DNA of 64,000 bases, from NCBI GenBank assembly GCA_027307165.1, contig DAHUXM010000021.1, forward strand, positions 1 to 64,000, given 5' to 3'. A program made the position numbers and the translations under genes. The notes under the pieces are model-generated. The model was not told where the DNA came from and ran no database searches. It saw nothing but the letters and a program-made list of their open reading frames with translations. This stretch comes from Gemmatimonadota bacterium (GTDB lineage: Bacteria; Gemmatimonadota; Gemmatimonadetes; Gemmatimonadales; Gemmatimonadaceae). Positions 4,801-64,000 of this stretch are shown piece after piece (the stretch's first letter is position 1; the number at the start of each line of letters is the position of its first letter).

Positions 4801-5087
4801 AGGCGGCGCGCGAGCGATTCCGTCCAATTCTCATGACTTCGTTTGCATTCATCCTCGGCGTTGCGCCGCTCGTCGTCGCGGGCGGTGCCGGCGCGGCAAG
4901 CCGGCATTCACTGGGTACTGGCGTGTTCGCCGGAATGCTCGTCGCAACGACTGTCGGTGTCTTCTTCATTCCGCTGTTCTTCGCTGTGATCGAGAAGCGG
5001 ATCAATCGACGCGAGCTTGCGACCGGGCATGACGTGCCTCCCGGCGGCGGCACAGCGGCGTCCGGCCATCCGGTACACAAGCAGTGA
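1866..5087 (+). CDS. RND multidrug efflux permease (HAE1 family, AcrB/MexB type)
   Basis: This 1073-residue protein has the usual length for proton-driven HAE1 pumps. It exports hydrophobic drugs, dyes and similar compounds from the inner-membrane leaflet and periplasm. Visible hallmarks are the first transmembrane helix after FFVQRPVLAGVIS, the TM4 proton-relay pair in GIVVDDAIVVIENVER, the TM10 lysine in LAAKNAILIVEFA, and two large porter/docking domains. The ATG overlaps the adaptor stop (ATGA), and its own stop overlaps the next start (GTGA), so the three pump genes are translationally coupled. The exact substrate cannot be read from the sequence. Confidence 0.95.
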   Translation: MSAVKPDPAGNPQDEKTPQYFFVQRPVLAGVISIVIALLGVLAMLSLPVNRYPQITPPSVRVTAVYPGASAEDVANSVAAPIEQQLSGLDGLLYYKSSNASDGSMNLALTFDISRDQDLAAVDVQNAINLALPQLPASVRQLGVTITKANPDILLVAALSSKDPRYDASYLSNYSKLYLEDEIKRVPGVGSAMTFGGLDFAMLLSLNPEKMAQLGITVDDVSAAVQAQNSTKPAGRLGREPAPSGTELTLPVTTAGRLTTPAEFANIIVRARPDGSIVHLGDIANVHLGSQGYDAAGRLNGAQTALMVVYARPGANNLDVKNAVAARLKELSKNMPAGVEAKIPVDTTPFITESIKEVVITLAEAMVLVTLVVFIFLQSWRATLIPVLAVPVSIIGTFLGLQFLGFTINTLTLFAMVLAIGIVVDDAIVVIENVERIMAAEHVSARVAANKAMHQVSGALVAIVLVLCSVFIPVALVGGITGTMYKQFAITIVISVVLSGFVALTLTPALCGVLLRKPPEETDNRLYNWFNHGFGKMTTRYVGAAGRIIDRPGLWLGVFVALVLGLVVLWKVVPGSFLPSEDKGYFAIAVQLPDAASLQRTTATVKQIEDMLHKEPAVRNVVVLVGLDLLSQSTQTNAATMFVSLKPWAERGASDGVDAVLQRVNGRLFGMKNAIAFGFNLPEIPGLGTTAGLELNLQERTGTDYNAFANSVRSFMADLQKVPSLQNPNVNIRTDVPQVYVHVDEAAAESRGVTSASIFSTLQTMLSNLYINDFNLYGRTYRVQAEAQTQFRQRPEDIGRFYVRSASGEMVPLSALTTTEMRGAPALLTRFNGFPSATITAAVAPGHSSGEGLDAVEKLIADKYAAQGVGYAYSGESYQERASSGQAGLVLALALVLVFLVLAAQYESWSIPFAVILALPFGVLGAYLGIFARGLSSDIYFQVALLAVLGLAAKNAILIVEFATELRRSGMSIREAALEAARERFRPILMTSFAFILGVAPLVVAGGAGAASRHSLGTGVFAGMLVATTVGVFFIPLFFAVIEKRINRRELATGHDVPPGGGTAASGHPVHKQ

Positions 5088-6631
5088 TATCCATCAATCA
5101 GGTGCCGCGCATAGTCAGCGCGTTCGCGGGAGCGACGGCGGTGTGGCTGCTCGCCGCGTGCGCCGTCGGCCCGTCAACTGCGGTTACGGCCGCGACACCA
5201 TCAGTCGCACAGACGAGCGATCAGGCGGTGACGCCAGCCGCTCGCACGTTCTTCGATTCTCTTGCGTCGGCGAGAGCGGCAGATTCCATTTCTCCCGCTC
5301 CGCAATCCGTGGTGAGTCAGGGTCAGCCGCAGCAGCCGCCGATCGGCGCCCCCACGACGCTGCGGCTCGATCCTGCGCACAACCTCACGTGGCTCGAGAT
5401 CGTGCGCGACAGCACACTCGCGTCGCTCATCCGGACGGCCGTCAACAACAACCGCGACCTGCGCGTCGCTCAGGCTCGCATTCGCGAGTACCGCGCACTT
5501 CACGGGGCTGCGGTTGGACCATTCTTTCCGCAGATAACGGCGAACGGGGCGGCGAGTCGAAACAAAATCGCGCTGGCTGGCGGCTCGCCGATCAAGTACG
5601 ACGCGATCAGCGCGACCGCGAACGTTGCGTGGGAGCTGGACTTCTGGGGGCGGATCCGTCGCGGTGCCCAGGCGGCGAACTTCGACCTGCTCAGCCACGA
5701 GGAGGACGCGCGCGCGACCGAGCTCACGCTCGTCAGTGATGTCGCGACGGAGTACCTGCAACTGCGCGAGCTGGACGAGAGCATGCGCATCGCCGAGGCG
5801 ACGAGGGCGGCGGGGCAGGCGGTGCTGGAGCTTGCGCGTCGCAGATTCGCGCAGGGCCAGATATCCGAGCTGGATGTGCGCCAGTTCGAAGCGCAGGTCG
5901 CCGATCCGGCAGCGCGCCTCGCACAATTCGCATTGCAGAGGCGCCAGCAGGAGAATGCTCTGTCCCTGCTGCTCGGCCAGCCGCCGGGCTCGATTCCGCG
6001 CGGCGGTCCGCTGCAGGACGTGATTCAGGCCGTTGCAGTTCCCGATTCGCTTCCGGGCGCATTGATCGCGCGGCGCCCGGACGTGATGCGGGCGCAGCGA
6101 GACATGCAGGCGTCGCTCGCACGAATCGGCGTCGCGGAAGCGAACAGACTTCCCACGATCATGGTCGGCGGAGATTACGGCTCGCAACGGCCGGAGGTGA
6201 ACAAGCTCTTCACGCGGCCAGGTGAGATTTACACGCTGCAAGCCGGTCTGTCGTTCCCCCTGTTCACCGGTGGTCGCCTGCTCAACGAGGAGCGTGCGGC
6301 GCGTGCACGCGCGGACGAGAGCAAGGCGCAGTATCAGCAGACCGTGCTCACCGCGCTGCGTGAAGCCAGCGATGCGCTTGCCGGCGTCCGGTTGGGCCGC
6401 GATCAGCTTGTGGCGCAGCAGACGCAGGCGCGTGCGTTGACGATCGCAGCGTCGATCGCCGAGCGGAGATATGCGAGCGGCGTGTCGAGCTATCTCGAAG
6501 TGCTGAACGCCGAGCAGAGCCTGTTCAACGCGCAGCTGAATCTGGTCGCGGTGGAGCAGCAGTATCTCACTGCAACGGTGCAGTTGTACAAGGCGTTGGG
6601 CGGAAGCTGGGACGGGGTGGGAATCCGGTGA
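5084..6631 (+). CDS. Outer-membrane efflux channel lipoprotein (OprM/NodT family)
   Basis: This is the TolC-like trimeric exit duct of the tripartite pump. The 515-residue product begins with a signal peptide ending in lipobox LLAAC, as in OprM-type lipoproteins. It then has the two OEP repeats, recognisable from NRDLRVAQARIREYRA, VAWELDFWGRIRRG and the second repeat around FPLFTGGRL and RRYASGVSSYLEVLNAEQS. An unusual 70-residue Ser/Ala/Gln-rich linker precedes the first repeat. The GTG start overlaps the permease stop by four bases. It completes the marR-adaptor-permease-channel cluster. Confidence 0.93.
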   Translation: MISINQVPRIVSAFAGATAVWLLAACAVGPSTAVTAATPSVAQTSDQAVTPAARTFFDSLASARAADSISPAPQSVVSQGQPQQPPIGAPTTLRLDPAHNLTWLEIVRDSTLASLIRTAVNNNRDLRVAQARIREYRALHGAAVGPFFPQITANGAASRNKIALAGGSPIKYDAISATANVAWELDFWGRIRRGAQAANFDLLSHEEDARATELTLVSDVATEYLQLRELDESMRIAEATRAAGQAVLELARRRFAQGQISELDVRQFEAQVADPAARLAQFALQRRQQENALSLLLGQPPGSIPRGGPLQDVIQAVAVPDSLPGALIARRPDVMRAQRDMQASLARIGVAEANRLPTIMVGGDYGSQRPEVNKLFTRPGEIYTLQAGLSFPLFTGGRLLNEERAARARADESKAQYQQTVLTALREASDALAGVRLGRDQLVAQQTQARALTIAASIAERRYASGVSSYLEVLNAEQSLFNAQLNLVAVEQQYLTATVQLYKALGGSWDGVGIR

Positions 6632-6658
6632 CGCGCGGATGCATCCGCGCCTCGCGCC

Positions 6659-8347
6659 CTACAGGGCGGCCACACCCTTCACCGGTACGTTCGTCGTAAG
6701 CTCCGGCTGCGGATCTTCGCGCAGCTCGGCGAGGTACTCGTGCACGAACTTGACCGCCATCGAGCCCTCGCCGACCGCTGCTGCCACGCGCTTTGCAGAG
6801 CCGAGGCGCACGTCGCCAGCCGCAAATACACCGGCCTGACTCGTCTCCAGCAGGAATGGCTGCCGCTTGCGCGTCCAGCCCGGCGTGTTGGCGAGCTGGC
6901 GGCCGGTGCAGACGAATCCCTTGGGATCGGTGTCGACCTGCGCGGGTAGCCAGTCGGTACGCGGAATCGCCCCGATGAGCGTGAAGACAGCAGGCGTGTC
7001 GATCGTGCGCCGCTCGCCTGTCGTCGTGTTTTCGACAACAACGCTCTCGAGACGCGTGTCGCCATGCAGCTCGCGAACCTGAGTGGTGTAGAGCACGTCG
7101 ATGTTTGGTGCGGCTTCGATGCGATCGATGAGATAGCTCGACATGGTCTGTCGCATGCTGTCGCGGCGTACGAGCATCGTCACGTTCTGCGTGTGCTGTG
7201 CGAGGTACACCGCTGCCTGGCCGGCTGAGTTGCCAGCGCCGACGATCACGACGTCGGCGCCGCCGCACGCATCCAGTTCCGTCTTCGTCGCCACGTAGTA
7301 GATGCCGATTCCCTCGAAGCGCTCGCGATCGGGAACGTCGAGCTTGCGATAGTCCGCGCCCGTTGCGATCAGAACGCAGCGCGCCGACGCGGTTTCACCG
7401 TCGTCCATGCGCACAGTGAGGTGCGATCCTTCATCTTCGAGCGCGGTTACGGGCGCCGGCGTGGACAGGCGCGCACCGAATTTCTGCGCCTGCAGTGTCG
7501 CGGCCCTTGTGAGATCGGCGCCCGTAATTCCCATGGGAAAGCCGAGGTAATTCTCGATCGCGTTGGACGCGCCCGCCTGGCCGCCCGGGGAGTCGGCGTC
7601 GAGTAACAGCGTGGTGAGCCCTTCGGACGAACCGTACACCGCAGCTGCGAGTCCGGCGGGGCCAGCGCCCACTATCACCAGATCGTAGACTTCGGTTCCG
7701 ATCGCGCGCTTGAGCCCGACAGCCTGTGCCAGGTCGCGCGTCGATGGATTGCGCAGCACCGGTTGGCCGGTGCACACCACCACGGGGAGCGCCTCATCGT
7801 CGACGCCGAAGTGGCGCAACAACTCGGCCGCGCCGGGATCGGTATCGACGTCGAGCCATCTCATCGGTACCTGATTGCGCGAGAGAAACTCGCGAATGCG
7901 GTACGTATCGCGCGAATTTCTCGACCCGATCACGCGGACTCCCTCGAATCCGGACTCGAGCAGCTGTTCTCTGCGCGCAATGAACGCCTGCAGAATGACA
8001 TCGCCCATTCCGGGATCTTCAGCAATCAGGCGGCGGATATCGGCCGGTGCGACTTCGAGTACGTCGGTCTCACCCCGCGCCACTGCGCTCACGACGGTGA
8101 CGCGTCGCGTGAGGATGTCGATGTCGCCGGTGAATTCACCCGGCTCATGCACCACGATCGTTCGCGGCTCGTCGCCCGAGTGATCGAGAATCTCGACCGC
8201 GCCCGACAGAACCACGAAGAAAGTCGCCGGGCTCACTCCGGCCTGAAACAGCGTATCGTTGTGATGGAAGTGACGCCGCTTCGCGTACTTCGACAGTGTT
8301 TCTATCTGTCGCTCGGTCAGGCTGGGGAATGCAACGTTTGAAGTCAC
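6659..8347 (-). CDS. cNMP-binding-domain thioredoxin-reductase-like FAD protein lacking the redox CxxC
   Basis: The 562-residue protein has three parts. Residues 1-130 form a cyclic-nucleotide-binding-like fold (SGAVEILDHSGDEPRT, EFTGDIDILT). Residues 135-210 resemble a thioredoxin/glutaredoxin fold. Residues 220-545 match low-molecular-weight thioredoxin reductase, with FAD motif GAGPAGLAAA at 227 and NADPH motif GAGNSAGQ at 370. The usual active-site CATC is replaced by YYVATKTEL at 350, and the thioredoxin-like part shows SRNS where a CxxC would be. It therefore cannot act as a classical dithiol reductase, although relatives with this architecture are common. A perfect palindrome lies just upstream at 8360-8375. 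The substrate is unknown. Confidence 0.85.
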   Translation of the reverse strand: MTSNVAFPSLTERQIETLSKYAKRRHFHHNDTLFQAGVSPATFFVVLSGAVEILDHSGDEPRTIVVHEPGEFTGDIDILTRRVTVVSAVARGETDVLEVAPADIRRLIAEDPGMGDVILQAFIARREQLLESGFEGVRVIGSRNSRDTYRIREFLSRNQVPMRWLDVDTDPGAAELLRHFGVDDEALPVVVCTGQPVLRNPSTRDLAQAVGLKRAIGTEVYDLVIVGAGPAGLAAAVYGSSEGLTTLLLDADSPGGQAGASNAIENYLGFPMGITGADLTRAATLQAQKFGARLSTPAPVTALEDEGSHLTVRMDDGETASARCVLIATGADYRKLDVPDRERFEGIGIYYVATKTELDACGGADVVIVGAGNSAGQAAVYLAQHTQNVTMLVRRDSMRQTMSSYLIDRIEAAPNIDVLYTTQVRELHGDTRLESVVVENTTTGERRTIDTPAVFTLIGAIPRTDWLPAQVDTDPKGFVCTGRQLANTPGWTRKRQPFLLETSQAGVFAAGDVRLGSAKRVAAAVGEGSMAVKFVHEYLAELREDPQPELTTNVPVKGVAAL

Positions 8348-8359
8348 GGTTTTCGGGTC

Positions 8360-8375
8360 TCGAACAATTGTTCGA
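8360..8375. promoter_or_regulatory. Perfect 16-bp palindrome TCGAACAATTGTTCGA
   Basis: The palindrome lies 13 bases upstream of the start of the flavoprotein gene, in the intergenic gap shared with the cupin gene. Its core is GAAC-N4-GTTC, the layout of Gram-positive-type SOS boxes, and a second imperfect copy occurs at 46785-46800. Which repressor binds it, if any, is not visible. Confidence 0.45.
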
Positions 8376-8538
8376 CAGGGTCAGGAGGGGATGGAGGGGA
8401 TTGGCTCACGGGTGCCGGATGGGGGCGCCCAAAACGATCTGCACGGATAGCTTCATGCCGTAACAGTATGATACACGGCCGGTCAACGACGAGCTGCCAC
8501 CGGTGCGTTGCATCGGCCCGCACCCTATCAACGTTCTC

Positions 8539-8895
8539 ATGAACATCGAGCAACAATTCGCGGACCTGCACGACCTCTGGTCACCCCGAGTGATCGGCCG
8601 CGTCAACGATCAGTACGTCAAGATCGCGAAGCTCAAGGGCGAGTTCACATGGCACAAACACGACGATGAGGATGAGATGTTCCTCGTCGTGAAGGGTCGG
8701 CTGAGGATCCAGTTCGAGGACGGTGACGTCGAGCTCGGATCGGGTGATTTCCACATCGTCCCGAAAGGTGTCAGGCACAATCCAGTCGCGGACGAGGAGT
8801 GCTGGATAATGCTGATCGAAACCGTGACGACCAAACACACGGGAGACGTGGTATCTCCACTGACCAGAACGATCGAGCAACAGCTGGGGCAGTAG
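8539..8895 (+). CDS. Small cupin-domain protein
   Basis: This is a 118-residue single-domain cupin. The metal-binding pattern is clear: WHKHDDEDEMFLVVKGRL carries the HxH and Glu ligands of motif 1, and VPKGVRHNP carries the motif-2 His. Related short cupins bind a divalent metal and act as sugar isomerases, dioxygenases or sensors; the substrate here cannot be assigned. ATG 8539 is preferred over an upstream in-frame ATG at 8503 because the family begins close to the MNIEQQFADLHD segment. The gene converges on the dioxygenase gene that ends at 8944. Confidence 0.85.
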   Translation: MNIEQQFADLHDLWSPRVIGRVNDQYVKIAKLKGEFTWHKHDDEDEMFLVVKGRLRIQFEDGDVELGSGDFHIVPKGVRHNPVADEECWIMLIETVTTKHTGDVVSPLTRTIEQQLGQ

Positions 8896-8943
8896 GCTCG
8901 ATCGCGGCAATCAGCATGACTTGCCGCCGTCAGGGTTACCGCT

Positions 8944-9885
8944 CTACGGTGCGACCGTCAGCGGCGGCAATTCGGATTCGATCTTCGTGCGCTCCGGCTC
9001 GAGCCACGGCGGGAGCACCAGCGTCTCGCCCAGCGATTCCGCGCTCTCATCGATCGTGAAGCCGGGTCCGTCGGTCGCGACTTCGAACAGCACGCCGCCC
9101 GGCTCCAGAAAGTAGACCGAGTGGAACCAGAAGCGGTCGATGACTTCCGTCGGGCGACGGTGTGCTGCTTCCACTCGCGCGCGCACTGCGAGCTGTGCAG
9201 CGTCGTCGGCAACTCGCCACGCAACGTGATGGATTCCGCCAACGCCCCAGCGGCCGCGCGTCCCGTCGCGAATCTCACGAATGTCGAGATGCCTCCCCGA
9301 TCCACCGTCACCGACTCCATAACGGTGCCATCCATCCTCCACGCCCATCGCGCGAAAGCCGAGCACATTGACGAGGAAATTTTCGGTCAGTGCAAGATCG
9401 CGCTCACACAATCGAACCGCCTGCAATCCACGGATCTGATGCTCCGCTGGGACGGGACTACGATCCCACGCGGCGAACGCGCGCGCGTCGTCGGTCGCAA
9501 CAAGCGCGACGGGTTGTCCGAAGGGATCGCGAATGGCAAGTGTGCGCTCCGAGTGACGCACTGATTCGGCTTCGATCGTGACGCCGAAATCACTGAGTCT
9601 GGCACGCCAGTACGGCACGCTCGCCGAAGGTATCGCGAGCGAAAACTCCATCGCGAGCCCGATGCCGTCCTGGACCGGTGGCGAGTCGGCCCACGGAAAG
9701 AAGGTGAGATCGGTACCGGGATTGCCGTCGGCGTCCGCGTAGAAGAGATGGTACGTGTCCGGCACATCCTGATTGACCGTCTTTTTCACGAGCCTCATGC
9801 CGAGTACGTGCGTGTAGAAGTCCAGGTTCGCCTGCGCGTTGCCGGTGATGGCCGTGACGTGATGGATTCCGCTGATCTCGCTCAT
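8944..9885 (-). CDS. Ring-cleaving dioxygenase, two-domain VOC/glyoxalase family (MhqO/PcpA type)
   Basis: The 313-residue protein has two vicinal-oxygen-chelate modules. The first begins GIHHVTAITGNAQANLDFY and the second contains GGIHHVAWRV, with a distal metal-ligand Glu in GVLFEVATDG. The two His and one Glu form the iron site of extradiol-type hydroquinone or catechol dioxygenases. Bacillus MhqO-like relatives detoxify quinones and hydroquinones. No aromatic pathway genes surround it, so a protective role against quinones is more likely than a catabolic one (inference). Confidence 0.87.
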   Translation of the reverse strand: MSEISGIHHVTAITGNAQANLDFYTHVLGMRLVKKTVNQDVPDTYHLFYADADGNPGTDLTFFPWADSPPVQDGIGLAMEFSLAIPSASVPYWRARLSDFGVTIEAESVRHSERTLAIRDPFGQPVALVATDDARAFAAWDRSPVPAEHQIRGLQAVRLCERDLALTENFLVNVLGFRAMGVEDGWHRYGVGDGGSGRHLDIREIRDGTRGRWGVGGIHHVAWRVADDAAQLAVRARVEAAHRRPTEVIDRFWFHSVYFLEPGGVLFEVATDGPGFTIDESAESLGETLVLPPWLEPERTKIESELPPLTVAP

Positions 9886-9894
9886 CAGGGGAAC

Positions 9895-10539
9895 TTAACG
9901 CGCCCCTCCAGTGCCTGGCGGAGCCACTCGCGGGACCGCAATGGTCGTTCGTCCGTCGCTCTGCTCGAGGCGCGCGCCCTGGCCGCCGAGCAGGCGCTCC
10001 GCCAACAGCAGGCTCACACTCACCGATCGGGACGCGCCGCAACATGAAGTGATGCGTATCTCATCCGCGGTGGCGGATGCGTCGATTGTGACTGTGCTGC
10101 CGGGTATGGCATAACGAATGTCGTCGGCCAGCGTAAGGCGGATTGCATCGCGGAGCTGAGTGAACGCGCCGATCGTGCTGGGCAGGCCGGGCGCAATGTT
10201 CACGATTAGCGATACATCAGCGCGTGACGCCTGCGCCAGGAGCTCCGGCTGAAGCGCTCGCAAAATCTCACCGATTCGCACCACGTCGCGCCGCGCGGTC
10301 GCGACCGCCTGGTCGGCGCTTGCGATGTCACGAAGCGCGTGTAGCTCCTCGGCGATATTGTCGAGAGCGGCGGCGGCATCGCGAAGCATCTCCTCCTGGT
10401 TGTCGTTGAGCTCGCCGAACTGCGCGGTAAGGAGAATGTGGATCGGTATGCGCGCGTCGTCGAGCGAGCGCTCGGCGGATGTGGCCGCTGTTGCAAGCGC
10501 GGACGTGTAGTCGGCGTCGGATGATATTGGTGTGGTCAT
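9895..10539 (-). CDS. Degenerate histidine-kinase-like protein (pseudokinase) at end of kdp operon
   Basis: The product is 214 residues. It resembles a DHp plus ATPase core in spacing (IPIHILLTAQFGELNDNQEEM, then DAIRLTLADDIRYAIPGSTV). Residues 28-32 read DARIP where kinases have HELRTP, so the phospho-accepting His is missing, and the N-box Asn and glycine-rich lid are not recognisable. It overlaps the KdpD N-terminal gene by ATGA and is therefore co-translated with it. It may be a non-catalytic partner of the split KdpD (inference). A decayed remnant is possible, but the frame is intact. Confidence 0.6.
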   Translation of the reverse strand: MTTPISSDADYTSALATAATSAERSLDDARIPIHILLTAQFGELNDNQEEMLRDAAAALDNIAEELHALRDIASADQAVATARRDVVRIGEILRALQPELLAQASRADVSLIVNIAPGLPSTIGAFTQLRDAIRLTLADDIRYAIPGSTVTIDASATADEIRITSCCGASRSVSVSLLLAERLLGGQGARLEQSDGRTTIAVPRVAPPGTGGAR

Positions 10540-11744
10540 GATGACGAAGGGGTGGTAGGACGTTCGTTGAAAGCCGCGACGAGAACGTCGAGGTCCTGAG
10601 TGTTGTTGATGAGCTTGTCGATCACCGAGCCACGGCGGATGTGATCCAGAAAGCTTCGGCGGGACTGACCGACGATTGCCAGTGTCACGCTCTTCTCGCG
10701 GGCAAACTGGCAGATGGCAGCGGCAACGTCGGTGCCTTCGAGCTTCACGATTTCAGCACCCATGCTCTGCGCAGCCTGAATGTTCTCCACCAGCCGCCGC
10801 TGAAGTGCGGAATCGATTCGGTCGCTTCGCTCGCTCGGAGTCTGCACGTACACGCAATACCAGTCGGAGTTGAGACGGCCGGCGATGCGGCTGGCCTTGC
10901 GAAGCAGCATCTGCGTGTATGGCGGGTTGCTCGACATCGCGACGAGAATGCGATCCGCAGTACGGCCGCCATGGCTGTTGTTCCGCGCGGACGGTAGACC
11001 CCTTGCCGCGATTCCCTCGCGAATACGGTCCACGCTGCTCGCCACTTCGCGCAGTGCAAGCTCGCGCAACGTAGTGAGATTCTCCTCTGTAAAGAAATTT
11101 GTGAGTGCGGACTGAATCTTCTCGGGCGCGTAGATCTTGCCTTCCAACAATCGCTGCCGGAGGTCCTCGGCGCTTATGTCCAGATTGACGACCTGATCCG
11201 CCTTGGCGAGCACCCAGTCCGGCACCGTTTCACGTACCGTTACGCCGAGTGTCTGCTGGACAATGTCGTTCAGTGACTCGACATGTTGTATGTTCACCGC
11301 GCTTATGACGCTTATGCCGGCGTCGAGTATGTCCTCGACGTCCTGCCACCGCTTGGTGTGTCTACCCCCGGGCACGTTCGTGTGGGCGAGCTCATCGACC
11401 AGTGCGACCGCGGGCGCCCGCGCGATCACCGCATCGACGTCCATTTCTTCGAGTACGACGCCTCGATACTCGACGCGGCGGCGCGGAATCACTTCGAGAT
11501 TGGCAAGTTGCGCTTCGGTCTCGGCGCGCCCGTGCGGCTCGACGAACGCGGCTACGACGTCGATGCCGCGCGCGCGGAGCGCGTTACCCTCCTGCAGCAT
11601 TCGGTAGGTCTTGCCGACGCCGGCGAACGACCCGATGTACACCTTGAGCTTCCCGTGCTCGCGGCTCTCGAGCAGGCGCAGAAAGTCGCTCGACCCGAGT
11701 GTTGCATCGGTGTTGGTTCCGTCGGTGTTACCTGAGGCAGTCAT
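10536..11744 (-). CDS. kdpD: KdpD N-terminal sensor half (KdpD domain plus universal-stress domain), separate gene
   Basis: The 402-residue protein matches only the cytoplasmic N-terminal half of KdpD. It has the KdpD domain with Walker A GSFAGVGKT at 38-46 and conserved DELAHTNVPGGRHTKRWQDV, followed by a universal-stress-like domain around residues 262-390 (ILVAMSSNP, LAIVGQSRRS). In E. coli this half is fused to four membrane helices and a kinase core. Here that half is a separate gene at 18655-19680 on the opposite strand. In other bacteria this region binds ATP, or c-di-AMP in the stress-like domain. It is nine bases downstream of the barrel gene and overlaps the pseudokinase gene. Confidence 0.88.
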   Translation of the reverse strand: MTASGNTDGTNTDATLGSSDFLRLLESREHGKLKVYIGSFAGVGKTYRMLQEGNALRARGIDVVAAFVEPHGRAETEAQLANLEVIPRRRVEYRGVVLEEMDVDAVIARAPAVALVDELAHTNVPGGRHTKRWQDVEDILDAGISVISAVNIQHVESLNDIVQQTLGVTVRETVPDWVLAKADQVVNLDISAEDLRQRLLEGKIYAPEKIQSALTNFFTEENLTTLRELALREVASSVDRIREGIAARGLPSARNNSHGGRTADRILVAMSSNPPYTQMLLRKASRIAGRLNSDWYCVYVQTPSERSDRIDSALQRRLVENIQAAQSMGAEIVKLEGTDVAAAICQFAREKSVTLAIVGQSRRSFLDHIRRGSVIDKLINNTQDLDVLVAAFNERPTTPSSS

Positions 11745-11753
11745 CCCGATCCC

Positions 11754-13136
11754 TCACATCTTTACGAGAAGCGCCAGATTGACGCGGCTTTCCGTCTTGC
11801 GAAGATCAGGGGACCAACCCTGAACGAGAGAGCCCGGCGGCCCCGTATTTCCGGCCGGCGGGGTAACCCCGCCGGATCCGCTGAAGTACGGCACGTTTGC
11901 CGCGCGGTGGTCGAGCTCGATCCGGAAAGTCGTGAACTCATCCGGCATGAAATCCAGCGTCGCCGACGCATCCCACGCCCTGAACTTATCGCCGGGATTC
12001 TCGGTGAAATACGGAGTTCCTGAAAAAGCAGTTGCTCCGTTTATCGGGGGCATGAGTACGAGATACCGGCCGGGATTGTTCATCGCTCCGCCGCCCAGTG
12101 TAACGCCGATAGAGTTGTCGGCGAACCACGTTCTGTTGTAGAACATGACACCGACGAAATTCTGGGCAGGGCCGCCTGCACCTGACGATGCGCACTGGAC
12201 GCCGCCCCCACTCTCGCATCCCGCATCGACCGTAAGCGAGAACGCAGCTCTGTCGAATTGTCTCGTCGGCCGGTCGTAGTATTTCACCTGCAGGCTGTTG
12301 TCGGTGTGAACGCGCATTCGCTTCGGAATGCCGAGCCAGTCGTGTCCGTAGTAGCTGTTGGAGTGAATCGACACGGCGCCAGTTGGACGCCACAGTACCT
12401 GAAGTCCGGCACCCGGTGTACCGTTGAACATTCCGTACGACTGCCAGCCGTTTACGAGCCACGGCTCGATCTTGAGCCTGTCGCTGACGAATATCTGCAG
12501 CCGCACGCCGTTGAAGAACCAGGGTGTATTCGATGACACGTAGGACGGCTGGTAAGCCCAGTTGTCGTAGTTGTAATAACTGAACAGACCCACGTACGAC
12601 ATGAAGATACCTGCATCCAGATTGACACCGTTCAGCTTGTTCCAGTGGTAGCCGCCGTACGCCTCGGAAAGGTAGCGGTATGCGTTGGCCAGATCCCACT
12701 GACCGCGTGCCGGGCTGACGTCGTTGCGCGGAGTCATGGTGGAGTACATGCCGAACTGCGTCATCAGCCGTCCACGCGCGTGACCACAGTGAAAGTCTCC
12801 TCCGACACCCAGTTGCTGTACCTGAAATTCGCCTGTACGCCCGCTTTCCGATGTGCCTGAGAGTGTATGGTCCCTGGGCTTGTTGAAGTCGCCGATGTAG
12901 CTCACATCGGCGCGAAACTCACCTGTGAATGCTTTGGTGTCCAGCACCGATACGTGCTGCCGGCTGTTGCCATTCAGCCAGGTGAAATCTGCGAATCCGA
13001 ACGGCGCTGGCGTGCTGTCCGTCCCGCAGATGGATGTCGCGGAGACGGTTGAATCCTGCGCGCGAGCGGTTGCTGCGGGAATGGCGCTGAGTAGGAAGAG
13101 TGTGACAAGTCCCGGTTGGCGGAATGCAAGTTTCAT
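11754..13136 (-). CDS. Outer-membrane beta-barrel, BBP2/OmpL-like porin in the kdp operon
   Basis: The 460-residue protein has a signal peptide (MKLAFRQPGLVTLFLLSAIP, then ATARAQ) followed by alternating aromatic beta-strands and a C-terminal strand ending VNLALLVKM. The FTWLNGNSRQ segment near the mature N-terminus and the strand pattern resemble the putative beta-barrel porin-2 family. It lies 32 bases after kdpC with a GGAG ribosome site seven bases before ATG, and nine bases before kdpD-N. Location inside the operon suggests it passes potassium or its counter-ion across the outer membrane during starvation (inference). Confidence 0.8.
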   Translation of the reverse strand: MKLAFRQPGLVTLFLLSAIPAATARAQDSTVSATSICGTDSTPAPFGFADFTWLNGNSRQHVSVLDTKAFTGEFRADVSYIGDFNKPRDHTLSGTSESGRTGEFQVQQLGVGGDFHCGHARGRLMTQFGMYSTMTPRNDVSPARGQWDLANAYRYLSEAYGGYHWNKLNGVNLDAGIFMSYVGLFSYYNYDNWAYQPSYVSSNTPWFFNGVRLQIFVSDRLKIEPWLVNGWQSYGMFNGTPGAGLQVLWRPTGAVSIHSNSYYGHDWLGIPKRMRVHTDNSLQVKYYDRPTRQFDRAAFSLTVDAGCESGGGVQCASSGAGGPAQNFVGVMFYNRTWFADNSIGVTLGGGAMNNPGRYLVLMPPINGATAFSGTPYFTENPGDKFRAWDASATLDFMPDEFTTFRIELDHRAANVPYFSGSGGVTPPAGNTGPPGSLVQGWSPDLRKTESRVNLALLVKM

Positions 13137-57297: not shown

Positions 57298-58605
57298 TCA
57301 GGCGAGACTGCGGAACGCCTGCGCTGCTGCCTTGATGGTGTGGTCCGTCTCCGCCTGGCCGTGCTGTGTGGAAACGAACCATGACTCGAATGCCGATGGC
57401 GGTGGTGAGACACCAAGCTCGAGCAGCGTGTGAAAGAAGGTCGAATAGCGACGCGTGTCGGACGCGCGCGCCTGCATGTAGTCGGTGACCGGCCGGTCCG
57501 AGAAGAACGGCGTCAGCATCGTACCCATGTGCGGTACCTGAAGGCTCACGCCTGCGGCTGCAGCCTCGCGCGCGAGACCCCTGGCGAGTGCGGTCGTGGC
57601 GTCCGCCGCACGCTGCCAGACGCCGGGTCTGGCCAGTTCGCGAAGAACTGCGACTCCCGCCGCCATCACGACCGGATTGCCTGCGAGCGTTCCAGCCTGA
57701 TAGACCGGCCCGTCGGGCGCAATCTGGCGCATCAGCCCGGGACGACCGCCGTACGCGCCGACAGGGAGGCCGCCGCCGATCACCTTGCCCAGCGTGGTAA
57801 GGTCCGGTGAAATGCCGAACAGCGTCTGAGCGCCGCCGGGATGTACCCGAAAGCCTGTCATTACTTCATCGAAGATGAGTACCGCGTCATACGCCGTTGT
57901 TTGCCAACGCAGAGCTTCGAGGAAGCCAGGAACTGGCAGCACAACTCCCATGTTGCCGGCGATCGGCTCGACGATGACAGCAGCGACCTTGTGACCGTAC
58001 TCGGCGAACGCATTGCGTACCGCTTCGACGTCATTATACGGTAGCACCATCGTGTCGCGGGTTGCCGCAGCGGTAACTCCGGGTGAATCCGGAAGTCCGA
58101 GTGTCGCGACGCCCGATCCTGCACGCACGAGGACCGAATCGGCGTGACCGTGATAATTGCCGTCGAACTTTATGATGAGATCGCGCCCCGTCGCGGCGCG
58201 GGCGAGCCGGATGGCGCTCATGACGGCTTCCGTGCCGGACGTCACGAATCGCATTACCTGCATCGACGGCATGAACTGCTGAATCGCCTGTGCGAGATCG
58301 ATCTCATGTGTGCTCGGCGCGCCGAAGCTCGTACCCTGCGCGGCAGTCTCTACGATCGCGTCCAGTACAACCTGCGGCGCGTGACCGAGAATGTGCGGAC
58401 CATAGGCGAGCAGGTAGTCCACCAGGCGATTGCCATCGGCATCGGTGACGTATGCGCCCTTGCCGCTCACGATGAAGCGCGGAGAACCACCGACGCCATT
58501 GAACGCACGTACCGGCGAGCTGACTCCACCCGGAAAGTACCGTCTGGCGACATCATAGAGTCGCGTGGATTCCGAGGTATCTGGCGTCGTGTCGATCGAT
58601 GTCAT
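57298..58605 (-). CDS. hemL: Glutamate-1-semialdehyde 2,1-aminomutase
   Basis: The 435-residue PLP enzyme converts glutamate-1-semialdehyde to 5-aminolevulinate. It shows [43 protein letters not shown] and the PLP Lys in [16 protein letters not shown]. Its ATG overlaps the hemY stop (ATGA) with GGAAG upstream. It is the last gene of the heme operon. The C5 pathway also needs hemA, which is not in the window. Confidence 0.95.
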
Positions 58606-59687
58606 GCCGCTTCCTCTATTTGTCGTGCTGCAAGATATGTTACCGCCGATTCGCCGGCACACTCGCCCGAATGGATGCAATCGGGGATTCCGATCCCATG
58701 AAAGGTAGATCCGGCGATGAAAATTCCCGGCACCGCTGCAAGCGCGTCGCCAAGTGCCGACACGTTCCTGTCGTGGTCGGGCGGATACACGGGGATCCCA
58801 GCGGGCCACTCGTACACCCGCGTAAACAGCGGCGGGGCAGTGACGCCCAGCGTCGAGGCGACTTCCGCGCGAACGAGTGAGACGGCATCGAGTCCGCAGC
58901 CGCGAACGTACCCGCGCACAAGAACAATCCCGCGCGGCGCATGAGTCGGGTTCTTGGAAGAGGTCCAGGTGCAGGCACTGACTGCGGACGACGGTTCCAT
59001 CACGAGATAGCCGGTGCCCGCAAGCGAGGACTGAACGTCGTCGGCATCCCACGCCATGGTCACGGTGGTCGTTGCTGGATACGCGACTTCTTCCAGCGTC
59101 TTCGCCGCCGGAACTGCAAGCGATGACAACAACGTCATGGCTGCACGTGCCGGAACTGCAACGATCGTGGCGTCTGCGAGCAGCGATGTGCCGTCCGCAA
59201 AGTGCGTGATCCATCTTTCATCATCGGTACGCTGGATCGACTCGGCGACTGCATTCGTGCGCACCGTTACGTCACTCAGCGCAGCGCAGGCAACGTCAAC
59301 CAGCTCGCGCACCCCCTCCCGGAACGTCAGCAACTCACCGTGGAAGGTCGTGGGCGATTTGCAGAGCTCGCCGTCCCGACTCTCGTAGGTCGGAAGGTTG
59401 TCAGGATTCACGCGAATCACGCGCGCGCCGAGCGACAGAGCAGCGAAGAGGCTGGTAGCGCGCAGCTTGCTCCCGATGCATACGTCCGCCCCGCCATCGA
59501 CCACGCATCCATCCACAACGTCGCCCGCGATCTTGCCGCCGAGCCGTGCGGCGGCGTCGGCGAGCGTGATGCCGCAGGAGTCGTTCAGTGCGCGAATGCG
59601 CAACGCGGCGGCGATTCCTGCGATTCCAGCACCGATGACGAGAATCTCAGGCCTTGCATTTCGCTCGACGCTGTCGCTCACGTCCAT
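58602..59687 (-). CDS. hemY: HemY-type coproporphyrinogen/protoporphyrinogen oxidase (CgoX)
   Basis: The 361-residue flavoprotein has the dinucleotide motif [16 protein letters not shown], a conserved RLGGKIAG segment and the C-terminal FAD region [20 protein letters not shown]. At 361 residues it is shorter than typical 450-residue HemY, so parts of the substrate domain may be reduced. With ChdC present, the likely reaction is coproporphyrinogen III to coproporphyrin III. AGGA lies about eight bases before ATG 59687; it overlaps hemH by ten bases. Confidence 0.88.
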
Positions 59688-60643
59688 CCGGCGTCCTGGG
59701 CCCGGCGTGCGATTATGGATGCCAGCTGCTTCACGAATTGCGGATCGTCGTTCAGGGACGGAGGGCGTTCCAGGTGCATGCCCAGCTCGCGTGCAACGCG
59801 CTGTGCGTCGATGTCGATGTCGTAAAGGATCTCGACGTGGTCGCAGACGAACCCTACAGGGACACTGACGACGTTGCGTATACCGCGCGCGGCAAGCGCC
59901 GCGAGATGGTCGGGGTAGGTGGGACCCAGCCACGGCTCCGGGCTGCGGCCGGCGGACTGATAGCTCCACGACCACCTGTCCACCGGTATTCCCGCGCTCT
60001 GCGCAACGAGCTGCGCGGTTTCATGAACCTGTGCGTCGTACGGATCGCCGGCGCGAATGATCCGTTCGGGCAGACTGTGCGCACTGAAGATCACGTGCAC
60101 CGAATCGCGCTCTGCTTCGGGCCAGCGTGCGATGCCGGCGAGCACGCGGTCGGCGAGCGCGGCAATCAGGCCTGGTGCGGTGTGATAGCTATCGACGTGC
60201 GCGAAGTCGATGTTCGTGCGGTACATGGAAAGGGCATCGGCTATCTTCGCCTGATAACGCGCGATGCTCATGCCGCTGAAGTGCGGTGCGAGGACCATGC
60301 TGACAGCGCGGTCGATCCCATCGACGCTCATCCGGCCCACCGTTTCCTCGATCCACGGCGACCAGTGGCGCATTCCGACATACACGCGAAAGCGCTGCGG
60401 CATTCCGGTGGGATTGAGCGAGCGCTCGATTCCATCTGCCTGGCGTCGTGTCAGCTCGGCGATCGGGGAACGTCCGCCAATTGCTTCGTAGTTGCGCGTG
60501 ATCTCGGCGAGCACGGCCGGCGTTGTAGGGCGGCCGTCGCGTATGTCCGCCAGATAGCCGGGAATCTCGGCAAGCGACTCGGGCCCGCCGTACGCCATCA
60601 GCAGCACGCCAATCGGTGCAGTTTGGCCAGCGTCGCCGGGCAT
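59678..60643 (-). CDS. hemH: Ferrochelatase (coproporphyrin type, CpfC)
   Basis: The protein of about 321 residues has the family motifs LLMAYGGPESL, YVGMRHWSPWI, FSAHSLPERI and VSVPVGFVCDHVEILYDIDI. It inserts ferrous iron into the porphyrin; given ChdC, the substrate is probably coproporphyrin III. An in-frame TTG at 60652 overlapping the hemE stop (TTGA) is an alternative start; ATG 60643 is chosen. Confidence 0.93.
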   Translation of the reverse strand: MPGDAGQTAPIGVLLMAYGGPESLAEIPGYLADIRDGRPTTPAVLAEITRNYEAIGGRSPIAELTRRQADGIERSLNPTGMPQRFRVYVGMRHWSPWIEETVGRMSVDGIDRAVSMVLAPHFSGMSIARYQAKIADALSMYRTNIDFAHVDSYHTAPGLIAALADRVLAGIARWPEAERDSVHVIFSAHSLPERIIRAGDPYDAQVHETAQLVAQSAGIPVDRWSWSYQSAGRSPEPWLGPTYPDHLAALAARGIRNVVSVPVGFVCDHVEILYDIDIDAQRVARELGMHLERPPSLNDDPQFVKQLASIIARRAQDAGWT

Positions 60644-60648
60644 GCGAG

Positions 60649-61770
60649 TCAAGGGCAGTAACCTGGTGCAGTTGCCTCATGCACGTAGTCCACGAGTCTG
60701 CGCACGTTGTCGACCGGCGTCGAGGGAAGAATGCCGTGACCGAGATTGAAGATGTGCCCGGGCCTGGAGCCGGCTCGCATCAAGACGTCATCGATCTGGG
60801 CCTTCAACTCTCGCCACGGCGCAAGCAGCGCGATCGGGTCCAGGTTTCCCATGATCGAATACCTGTCACCCAGTCTCGCGCGTACCGAATCCAGCGGCGT
60901 GCGCCAGTCGATTCCCACCACGTCACCGCCGCACGCTGCCACGTCGTCGATGTACGCGCCGGTGCCGGTGCTGAAGTTGATTACCGGAACCCCGGCAGCA
61001 TGGACTGCACGGTAGAGCGCTGCGTTATGCGGCTGCACGTAGCGTGCATAATCATGTGGACTGAGCGCGCCTGCCCACGAGTCGAACACCTGCAGGAGGT
61101 CGGCGCCTGCACGCGCCTGCGCGACGAGGTAATCGGCAAGCACGGTAACGAGGCGGCGCATGAGCCGTCCCCACGCCGCCGGCTCCGCGTACATGAAGCT
61201 CTTCGCCAGATCGTAGCGTTGCGAGCTGCCACCCTCGATCGCGTAACACGCCAGTGTGAAAGGCGCACCAGCGAATCCAATGAGCGGGGTCGAGGCGGGG
61301 AGCGCTTCGCGCACGAGCCGAATTGCGCCAAGCGTACCACGCATCGTCTGCTCAGCCGGCGGAGTGCCGAGCATGTCGACGTCGCGCGACGCCCGAACCG
61401 GGTTGGCAATGCGCGGGCCGGCGCCTGCGACGAAGTCGAGGTCGAGCCCCATGCCGATGAGCGGCGGCAGGATGTCGGAGAAGATGATAGCAGCATCGAC
61501 GCCGAGTGCCTTGACGGGCTGCAAGGTGATCTCCGCCGCAGTTGCGGGATCGCCGATCGCTTCCAGCATGGTCTGGCGCGCGCGGATTGCGCGATACTCC
61601 GGCATGTACCGTCCGGCCTGCCGCATCAGCCACACGGGAGTGTGCGGCACAACCTCCCGACGGCATGCGCGAACGAGAACGGAGCCCGCTGCTACGCTCG
61701 CGGCGGGTACTTCGCCGTGCCCGGCCGGCATTGCATGCTGACGGGTGTTCGCCGGGCGCGTTGCTGCCAT
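60649..61770 (-). CDS. hemE: Uroporphyrinogen decarboxylase
   Basis: The 373-residue enzyme removes four acetate carboxyls of uroporphyrinogen III. Diagnostic motifs are WLMRQAGRYMPEYRAIR, IIFSDILPPLIGMGLDL and GFAGAPFTLACYAIEG. A 30-residue Ala-rich extension precedes the core. The ATG overlaps the hemB stop (TGATG). Confidence 0.95.
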   Translation of the reverse strand: MAATRPANTRQHAMPAGHGEVPAASVAAGSVLVRACRREVVPHTPVWLMRQAGRYMPEYRAIRARQTMLEAIGDPATAAEITLQPVKALGVDAAIIFSDILPPLIGMGLDLDFVAGAGPRIANPVRASRDVDMLGTPPAEQTMRGTLGAIRLVREALPASTPLIGFAGAPFTLACYAIEGGSSQRYDLAKSFMYAEPAAWGRLMRRLVTVLADYLVAQARAGADLLQVFDSWAGALSPHDYARYVQPHNAALYRAVHAAGVPVINFSTGTGAYIDDVAACGGDVVGIDWRTPLDSVRARLGDRYSIMGNLDPIALLAPWRELKAQIDDVLMRAGSRPGHIFNLGHGILPSTPVDNVRRLVDYVHEATAPGYCP

Positions 61771-62768
61771 CAATCCTTCAGCCACCGCGCGGCATCCTTG
61801 GCGTGATATGTAATGATCATTCCCGCGCCGGCGCGGCGCATCGATGTGAGTGATTCGAGCACGACAGCGCGCTCGTCGATCCATCCTGCCGCGGCCGCCG
61901 CCTTCACCATCGCGTATTCTCCACTCACGTTGTATGCGACGAGAGGCACGCCGGGATGCGCGGCGCTCACCGCGCTCACGATGTCGAGATAGGCCAGCGC
62001 AGGCTTCACCATCAGGAAATCCGCGCCTTCAGCAACGTCGAGCGCACTCTCCCGCAAAGCGATCCCGCGATTCGCGGGGTCCAGCTGATGCGTGCGCCGA
62101 TCGCTGAACGCCGGCGCACCACCTGCCGCGTCGCGGAACGGGCCGTAGTACGCGGATGAATACTTCACGGCGTAAGCCATGATCGCGACATTCGCATGGC
62201 CTGCATTGTCGAGCGCGACACGGATTGCGCCGACGGCGCCGTCGATCATCCCGCTCGGTGCGACGACGTCTGCGCCCGCCTGTGCGTGGGATACCGCAAT
62301 CCGTCGCAGGGACTCGAGCGTCTCGTCGTTGATGAGGTACTGCTGGTCGTCGAGGATCCCGCAGTGGCCATGCGACGTGTACTCGCACATGCACACGTCA
62401 GTGATGACGAGCAGATCGGGTGCGTGAGCCTTGAGAGCACGGATCGCGCGCTGAACGGCGCCGCCGGAGGCGTAACTCTCCTTCCCATGCGGATCCTTGC
62501 GGTCCGGTGCTGGTACGCCAAAAAGAATCACCGCGGGAACGCCGGCTGCGACGAGCTCGTCGGCGATCGCCGTTACACCATCGACGGACACCCGGTTGAT
62601 TCCATGCATCGACTCGATCGACTCGACGACGTTCTCGCCGTCAGTGACGAAGATCGGTGCGATGAGATGCTCCGGCCTCAGCAAAGTCTCGCGTACCATC
62701 CGCCGCATGGTTTCACTGCTGCGCAGCCGGCGGAGTCTCACGGTGGGGAATTGGCCGGCGTCGGTCAT
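61770..62768 (-). CDS. hemB: Delta-aminolevulinate dehydratase (porphobilinogen synthase)
   Basis: The 332-residue enzyme condenses two 5-aminolevulinates. It has the zinc-type cysteine cluster DVCMCEYTSHGHCG and both active-site lysines, in AYAVKYSSAYYGPFRD and FLMVKPALAYLDIV. ATG 62768 overlaps the hemD stop by four bases; its own stop overlaps hemE. Confidence 0.96.
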   Translation of the reverse strand: MTDAGQFPTVRLRRLRSSETMRRMVRETLLRPEHLIAPIFVTDGENVVESIESMHGINRVSVDGVTAIADELVAAGVPAVILFGVPAPDRKDPHGKESYASGGAVQRAIRALKAHAPDLLVITDVCMCEYTSHGHCGILDDQQYLINDETLESLRRIAVSHAQAGADVVAPSGMIDGAVGAIRVALDNAGHANVAIMAYAVKYSSAYYGPFRDAAGGAPAFSDRRTHQLDPANRGIALRESALDVAEGADFLMVKPALAYLDIVSAVSAAHPGVPLVAYNVSGEYAMVKAAAAAGWIDERAVVLESLTSMRRAGAGMIITYHAKDAARWLKD

Positions 62769-63547
62769 TGCATGCTTATTGGTGGCGCTTGCTGTGCATT
62801 GTCGTGCGGGGCCACGCCGAACATCCGCGATAGCGCGGTAACGACGCCATCGAGGGTATACACTCCCGCCACAGCCGATACCGGCAATCCCGCCTCTGTC
62901 GCCGCGTTCGCAGTAACGGGTCCGATGCAGACTATGCGCGGCGCGACAGACGTACCGAAGCACGCAACGAACGCGTGCACGGCTGACGGACTGGTAAAGG
63001 TTATCGCGTCGGCCTCCAGTACCCGGTTTCGCGTCTCATCCTGCACGGTGCGAGCGACGGTGTCGTACAGAATCACTTCCACGACTTCGGCGCCGCGCGC
63101 GCGCAGCGTGTCTGAAAGAACCGAGCGTGCGCCCGCGGCCCGCGGCCAGAGAATCTTCATTCCGTTCACGTCGCCGAGTGCATCTGCGAGCGACTCTGCG
63201 ACAAATTCAGGTGCAGTCACTGCCGAGGTCGCGCCGAGCGCGGCAACCGCTCGTGCAGTAGCGGGTCCAACTGCCGCGATCGCGGGATGCAAACGGAACG
63301 CGGTCTGATCGGCGGCGTCCAGTCGAGCCCAGAACATGCGCACGCCGTTAGCGCTCGTGAAGGCGATCCAGTCGAATTCGCCGACTGCGGCAGACGCAAG
63401 CGAATCATCGCGATGGATCGGATCGATGCCGATGAGTGGAACCACGAGCGGCTCGGCGCCGGCTCGTCGGAGCGCGGTCGTGAGTGGTCCATCTTCCATC
63501 TCGAAGCGCGTCACGACCACGCGGCGTCCAGTGAGCGGCGCCGTCAT
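62765..63547 (-). CDS. hemD: Uroporphyrinogen-III synthase
   Basis: The 260-residue protein has the two-lobed HemD layout: GRRVVVTRFE at the start, IAFTSANGVRMFW, IAAVGPATARAVAALG, and ADAITFTSPSAVHAF with PRIVCIGPVTANAATEAGL in the second lobe. It cyclises hydroxymethylbilane with D-ring inversion. The ATG overlaps the hemC stop (ATGA), which supports a native hemC end at 63544. Confidence 0.92.
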   Translation of the reverse strand: MTAPLTGRRVVVTRFEMEDGPLTTALRRAGAEPLVVPLIGIDPIHRDDSLASAAVGEFDWIAFTSANGVRMFWARLDAADQTAFRLHPAIAAVGPATARAVAALGATSAVTAPEFVAESLADALGDVNGMKILWPRAAGARSVLSDTLRARGAEVVEVILYDTVARTVQDETRNRVLEADAITFTSPSAVHAFVACFGTSVAPRIVCIGPVTANAATEAGLPVSAVAGVYTLDGVVTALSRMFGVAPHDNAQQAPPISMQ

Positions 63548-64000
63548 GACTGCATCGACCGTAACGATGAACTCAGTTCCTCGTCCACCGCATTGTGCAA
63601 TTCGACGTCGTCGATGCGCGTCAGGATGTCCAGAGCGATAGGATCGTCGGCGCGGCACTGCACCGCGAGAGCGCCCTGGCCCGCGGCGGGCGGCATCGTC
63701 CTGAGATCGAATATCTCGGTGATGTTCGCGCGTAGCTGCAACCGTTCGAGACCCGCGAGAGCAAGCAGCGCAGCGTCATAATCGCCCGCGAGTACCTTCG
63801 CGACGCGCGCGTCCACAGTGCCGCGAATCGGTTTTACCTCGAGATCGGGACGCAGCGCGAGAACTGCCGCGGCGCGTCGCGCGCTGGATGTGCCAACGAG
63901 CGAGCCCGGCGGAAGTTCGCTCAGTCTGAGAGGACGGGAGCATACGAGAGCTTCGCGCGGGTCGGCACGAACAGGCACCGCGGCGATCACGAGTCCGGCA
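63544..64000 (-). CDS. hemC: Porphobilinogen deaminase, 5' part outside window; C-terminal cofactor domain apparently missing
   Basis: The gene enters from beyond base 64000. The visible 151 residues match domains 2 and 1 of HemC: GLVIAAVPVRADPREALV, VGTSSARRAAAVLALRPDLE, IRGTVDARVAKVLAGDYDA and PPAAGQGALAVQCRADD. It stops at DEELSSSLRSMQS, aligning with the stretch just before the EGGC motif. The roughly 75-residue domain 3, with the dipyrromethane-cofactor Cys, is absent. Only two Cys are visible, neither at the cofactor position. The hemD overlap argues against a simple frameshift. Confidence 0.9.
   Translation of the reverse strand, partial: AGLVIAAVPVRADPREALVCSRPLRLSELPPGSLVGTSSARRAAAVLALRPDLEVKPIRGTVDARVAKVLAGDYDAALLALAGLERLQLRANITEIFDLRTMPPAAGQGALAVQCRADDPIALDILTRIDDVELHNAVDEELSSSLRSMQS

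Follow-up and report, generated by a model that had tools for sequence, protein, structure and literature searches.

A hemC gene without the cofactor-bearing domain in the hem operon of a Gemmatimonadaceae genus

Introduction

A dipyrromethane covalently bound to a cysteine of domain 3 is a textbook feature of hydroxymethylbilane synthase (HMBS, HemC), the nearly universal enzyme building the backbone of heme, chlorophyll and B12, and this covalent dipyrromethane is believed to limit the chain to four units. The window, the 64,000-nucleotide stretch of Gemmatimonadaceae DNA analysed here, ends in a hemC gene whose product stops before that domain. The locus thus raises the question of whether such a protein can still make bilane and, if so, how the primer would be held. 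Passages of PMC3949521 and PMC7242693 describe the dipyrromethane on the domain-3 Cys of canonical HMBS, and the standard view, as outlined in a passage of PMC8561815, is that, during chain growth, the cofactor is drawn past the catalytic Asp by the Cys to which it is bound. According to an excerpt of PMC10577081, Cys261 of human HMBS is intolerant to change in a saturation map.

Results

The hem genes around the short hemC are arranged in the order hemA-hemC-hemD-hemB-hemE-hemH-oxidase-hemL, and the features located in the window are as follows.

63544–64000, minus strand: 3' part of the short hemC; encodes HMBS domains 1 and 2 and lacks both domain 3 and the cofactor Cys
63544–63580, minus strand: C-terminal tail of hemC, roughly 11 codons and the stop codon; canonical HemC continues here into the cofactor loop EGGC
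62765–63547, minus strand: hemD, uroporphyrinogen-III synthase, 260 aa; shares an ATGA with the end of hemC
61770–62768, minus strand: hemB, porphobilinogen synthase, 332 aa; sole hemB of the genome
60649–61731, minus strand: hemE, uroporphyrinogen decarboxylase; start codon chosen in this analysis
59678–60643, minus strand: hemH, ferrochelatase; start codon chosen in this analysis
58602–59687, minus strand: protoporphyrinogen/coproporphyrinogen oxidase-like protein of the amine-oxidase family; putative role, based on operon position
57298–58605, minus strand: hemL, glutamate-1-semialdehyde aminomutase-like aminotransferase; start codon chosen in this analysis

Within the window, the hemC frame occupies 63544–63999 of the minus strand and ends in ...DVELHNAVDEELSSSLRSMQS followed by the stop codon, with DEELSSSLRSMQS as the terminal residues. 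The whole gene (G000:C25:63544-64266; L042:6545-7267) runs beyond the window end; counted from the chosen ATG, its product has 240 aa. Its TGA (63546–63544) overlaps the hemD ATG (63547–63545) as ATGA, which agrees with the first-pass annotation that hemD starts at once. The protein matches PF01379, the profile of domains 1 and 2, with 223 bits against a cut-off of 22.1 (profile positions 2–203 of 207), and the overall HemC profile TIGR00212 with 243 bits against a cut-off of 164 (positions 2–225 of 293). PF03900, the profile of domain 3, gives no match in this protein and none in a six-frame search of the whole genome (G000, 98.23% complete), in which PF01379 gives a single match; the gene is therefore the sole HemC of the genome. 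The annotation's statements that the cofactor-bearing domain is missing and that no domain-3 sequence follows downstream are thus borne out, and neither of the two things it had proposed to look for in the genome, a second full-length hemC or a free domain 3, was found.

The other members of the genus give the same picture. PF01379 is present in all four genomes of the genus (completeness 98, 99, 94 and 89%) and PF03900 in none of them. Each encodes a 240-aa HemC whose TGA overlaps or touches the hemD start; the other three proteins share 97, 70 and 78% identity with that of the window, and the sequence of the tail varies among the genus members. Since all four genomes give a 240-aa HemC with the same hemD junction, the absence of domain 3 is confirmed as genuine and is due neither to chance nor to sequencing error. 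A sequencing frameshift, named at the outset as what might overturn the observation, is very unlikely given this agreement of four genomes; together with the six-frame search without domain 3, the common ending led us to reject a frameshift or a missed downstream domain.

Of 118 genomes of the family that were surveyed, 91 contain PF01379 and 85 contain PF03900. A profile built from the short-form HemCs and the HemC of genome G029 (profile A2) was run on 395 genomes of the phylum. Among the matches listed, the five training HemCs (four of the genus plus G029) were followed by a protein of genome G110 (G110:C156) at 327 bits, and the next match scored 250 bits; among the matches listed in this phylum search, frames of less than 290 aa came from the genus alone. 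Part of the matches were listed both here and in an order-level search of 288 genomes with TIGR00212, so further short forms may exist outside the genus. The G110 protein is a fifth, more diverged short HemC likewise without domain 3, ending in ...ASVDGERSGHMSPAQT and a stop codon. In a tree set that included 42 HemCs with domain 3 and left out L077, the five short HemCs form one clade with a support of 100/100. The alignment of all five stops before or at the column of Cys242, a position occupied by Cys in 39/39 canonical rows.

Several further observations were made in the family survey. PF01379 is absent from 27 of the 118 genomes, several of which are 99–100% complete (genera g20, g24, g30 and others), and this suggests a repeated loss of the tetrapyrrole pathway, as judged from genome content. 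Genomes G039 and G043 each contain two PF01379 matches with domain 3 on both, and one of the G039 copies resembles a divergent group of genera g13/g20.

A separate protein carrying domain 3 was sought with a domain-3 profile made from 10 relatives (profile A3), which was searched in six genomes at E values up to 10. No convincing domain-3 match was found in the genomes of the genus at E up to 10. The six genomes gave 15 matches, including G110's resident HemC. Of the remaining 14, 11 were inspected (all but L098, L099 and L101), and none of these is a domain 3. They comprise a recurrent EGGC motif in a presumably L-serine dehydratase-like protein, a presumably TyrRS-like protein and unrelated proteins.

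The short HemCs retain the catalytic Asp and most contacts to the pyrrole chain. All five contain the catalytic Asp (Asp84 in E. coli) as well as R131 and R132 (E. coli numbering), two arginines that are described in a passage of PMC3945110 as required for cofactor binding. The same source lists, from simulations of E. coli HMBS, residues touching the growing pyrrole chain, and we took the chain contacts from its Table 1, 24 being chosen first and then all 30. Residues identical to E. coli number 23, 23, 23, 23 and 22 of the 24 in the short HemCs, compared with 20–23 (median 23) in canonical relatives (n=39). For all 30 contacts, the values are 24, 24, 24, 25 and 23 in the short forms and 23–27 (median 25) in the canonical ones (n=39). 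Two degenerate HemC-like proteins, L109 and L110, keep 11 and 5 of the 30. Specific replacements were also observed: N151, invariant in 39/39 canonical rows, has given way to T or A in each of the five short HemCs; T127 is changed to I in that of G110; and R232, again invariant in 39/39 canonical rows, is lost in four of the five. Mutation of R232 to His is reported as detrimental in a passage of PMC3945110. The AlphaFold2 model of the short HemC, computed with an alignment of 41 native sequences, adopts a compact two-domain fold with pLDDT 94.9 and pTM 0.90. Its best PDB matches in Foldseek are HMBS structures, including 4htg (TM 0.91) and 1ah5 (TM 0.83; both by query length).

We also compared evolutionary rates within the operon. 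The NG86 omega of hemC in six within-genus pairs is 0.081–0.159, and the same pairs give 0.060–0.088 for hemB, 0.059–0.141 for hemD and 0.136–0.171 for hemA, values that are rough since dS is at least 1.4 in 5/6 pairs and thus near saturation. The hemC values lie within the range of the neighbouring hem genes, which indicates purifying selection. Additionally, COX1, the subunit I of heme-copper oxidase, is present in 7/7 genomes tested, including the four of the genus; heme is therefore needed in these organisms.

A further change of the short HemCs concerns the active-site loop, which is remodelled and one residue shorter than in canonical HemC. Within E. coli positions 1–221, 14 positions are invariant in the five short HemCs and carry a residue that is rare in the 39 canonical rows. 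Seven of these 14 short-specific changes fall in loop 40–63, whereas only 6 of the 105 remaining invariant positions do (Fisher p 7.5e-5), and the same loop test in three other five-row clades gave 1/5, 3/11 and 0/1. In the E. coli simulations, as a passage of PMC3945110 describes them, K55 of the loop touches domain 3 at E239, Q243, E305, V306 and N308. We read the loop change as consistent with a lost domain 3, though not as proof. A joint loss of the loop Lys55 with domain 3 was considered as well and rejected as a specific signal, since Lys is not conserved at this position in canonical relatives of the phylum (E in 12, A in 12, D in 8 and T in 3 of 39).

Genome G110 provides a case in which a short and a canonical-type HemC coexist. 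Its contig C156 contains an 11,172-bp stretch (L082, about 742-11913) inserted between genes that are adjacent in the genus-mate G037, the flanks being the gene after glmS on one side and its G037 neighbour on the other. This island comprises a two-component pair (sensor kinase and response regulator) followed by hemA-C(short)-D-B-hemQ-like-E-H-PPO-L, in which a chlorite-dismutase-like gene, read as hemQ, lies between hemB and hemE. In the operon of the window, a HemQ-like gene is absent between hemB and hemE. Contig C156 carries the only full-length glmS of G110, which is 93% identical to that of G037 and 80% to that of G000, as well as the only hemB, located in the operon with the short HemC; on these grounds, we rejected the idea that the second HemC stems from contamination. 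At the canonical locus, G037 has CobA-HemD, HemC and HemB together; at the matching locus of G110, HemC alone is left, with hemB and CobA-HemD missing there. In this resident HemC the cofactor Cys is replaced by Gly (codon GGC vs TGC in G037) and the changes G173D and R176M occur, so that the short HemC is the sole HemC of G110 keeping R176 and G173. The simplest story would be that an operon with the short HemC entered G110 and that the resident genes then decayed. The resident HemC is still an open frame. As far as gene content and residues can tell, G110 offers the strongest hint that the short HemC may make bilane without canonical help.

Loss of the cofactor Cys is also found in proteins that keep domain 3. 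Among the 42 HemCs with domain 3 in the tree set, 39 have the Cys and three lack it, namely those of G029 and G195 and the resident one of G110. The G029 protein is the sole HemC of a 100%-complete genome and lies in a compact sulfite-reductase/siroheme operon (L046, G029:C10:18000-31000) with a sulfite/nitrite-reductase-like gene, hemA, a CbiX-HemC fusion, a CobA-HemD fusion, hemB and hemL. It shares about 39% identity with the window HemC and resembles the short forms in lacking the cofactor Cys, in keeping 20/24 chain contacts and in having a similar loop; unlike them, it retains the domain-3 fold (AlphaFold2 pLDDT 94.0; VIA-align Z 36 to 4htg over 285 residues). The free tree puts G029, which is on a long branch, elsewhere with weak support, and a single clade of G029 and the short forms is not rejected (AU p 0.548); the tree constrained in this way exceeds the free one by 1.36 lnL. 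The G029 form could be an intermediate in which the Cys was lost before the domain. In the G195 HemC (L104, G195:C23:1821-2684), the cofactor loop reads GIGGYSAPVG, with one residue deleted and Tyr at the Cys column; its other chain contacts are intact, and it is the only HemC found there, in a hemA-C-D-B cluster.

A different kind of variant occurs in family f5. Eight HemC-like frames of about 290–375 aa (L109, L110, L111, L112, L113, L114, L115 and L117, from G444, G341, G399, G339, G384, G409, G385 and G354, respectively) keep a domain-3-like end but have neither the catalytic motif VHSxKD nor a cofactor Cys. Each is the sole TIGR00212 match of its own genome, at 64–108 bits and below the cut-off. 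They are possibly pseudoenzymes or very divergent HMBS.

Discussion

The short HemC shares with canonical HemC (E. coli 1ah5 and 1pda, B. megaterium 4mlq, Arabidopsis 4htg) the fold of domains 1 and 2, the catalytic Asp, the place in a hem operon and residues K83, S81, R11, R131, R132, R149, R155 and R176. It differs in having neither domain 3 nor the cofactor Cys, in the change of N151 and the loss of R232 described above, and in its remodelled, shorter loop. On this sequence evidence, we think it probable that the short HemC is a working hydroxymethylbilane synthase of two catalytic domains that uses a dipyrromethane primer without a covalent anchor. In such an enzyme, the catalytic Asp (D84 in E. 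coli) would drive the head-to-tail joining of units along the conserved Arg/Lys/Ser track, and the bilane would then be handed to HemD, HemE and onward. The primer might be a free dipyrromethane that salt bridges retain in the pocket for repeated use, or porphobilinogen might serve as the first acceptor; the chain would have to move freely, without a Cys pulling it. A primer held by the pocket alone, or porphobilinogen as first acceptor, is favoured because the covalent anchor has been lost whereas R131, R132 and the Asp persist. Overall, we infer that the bilane is made by the short HemC, that no partner replaces domain 3, and that the primer is held in one of these modes. The loss of R232 in four and the change of N151 in all five short HemCs, the T127 change and the still open resident hemC frame in G110, the near saturation of dS in most pairs and a Cys regarded as essential (Cys242/Cys261) count against this explanation.

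The first-pass annotation had offered three readings, of which a genuine variant of this lineage is supported, an inactive copy is disfavoured, and a domain 3 supplied by another protein is unsupported by sequence. An inactive relic or an artefact, with a dead pathway or a misassembled gene, is extremely improbable: the genomes are drafts, and against this stand the four genomes agreeing in length and hemD junction, the single copy with an omega of about 0.08–0.16, the chain contacts mostly kept, and a fifth copy on an inserted island that apparently replaced the resident gene in G110. The mostly kept pocket of domains 1 and 2 and the presence of R131/R132 in all five could still accommodate a tethered primer, so a separate protein without detectable sequence similarity might carry the dipyrromethane covalently and supply domain 3 in trans. 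We consider this unlikely, given that the genus contains no PF03900 and no convincing A3 match (E up to 10), that the loop meeting domain 3 is remodelled and that R232 is lost in four of the five.

It is also rather unlikely that the short HemC has taken on a new function or a scaffold role while some other enzyme performs the step. The loss of the Cys and of R232, both known to matter, would fit such a change, and the frames of family f5 without catalytic Asp and Cys illustrate within the same phylum how HemC paralogues drift. Unlike those frames, however, the short HemC has preserved its catalytic Asp along with the majority of chain contacts; it is the sole HemC of the genus and lies within the hem operon, and in G110 it is the one copy with R176 and G173 intact. 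Very unlikely, finally, is an anchoring of the dipyrromethane on another Cys of domains 1–2, such as Cys204 (E. coli C205), which no other Cys matches in being shared by the five. A Cys at E. coli position 205 is present in all five short HemCs and in G029, but the same Cys occurs in 8/39 canonical relatives that also have Cys242, and the residue, which the alignment places in domain 1 on the strand just after the hinge, would probably not reach the cleft. C109 is found only in the four genus members, and Cys99, Cys109 and Cys204 are all weak candidates for a new anchor.

The short length alone is probably not new, since a domain-3-less HMBS seems to be catalogued already. The NCBIfam family NF002202 (PRK01066), named 'hydroxymethylbilane synthase', has 241 positions and appears to stop about 11 residues before the Cys; on the canonical HemC of G037 its match ends at position 232, with the Cys 20 residues beyond and only 9 positions left. 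Its members are, we assume, the ~241-aa HemC of Chlamydiae. The window HemC scores 108.5 bits against the cut-off of 251 and is thus not a member, and no HemC of four genomes tested passes this cut-off. In the open-licence PMC literature we found no report of a domain-3-less HMBS or discussion of how it works.

More broadly, and with somewhat less than even confidence, we propose from these sequences that bilane synthesis may need no covalently anchored primer: in this lineage, a two-domain HemC with a primer held by an arginine pocket alone, or with porphobilinogen as first acceptor, would suffice, and it would have displaced the canonical enzyme in G110, whose Cys was then lost. If this is true, the starter would not have to be bonded to the enzyme. 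A working two-domain enzyme would reveal what part of the machinery matters, would be a simpler model in which to study how chain length is controlled, and would bear on the evolution of the enzyme from a periplasmic-binding-protein-like fold. It would also carry a warning, in that genomes scored as without a valid HemC may still make heme.
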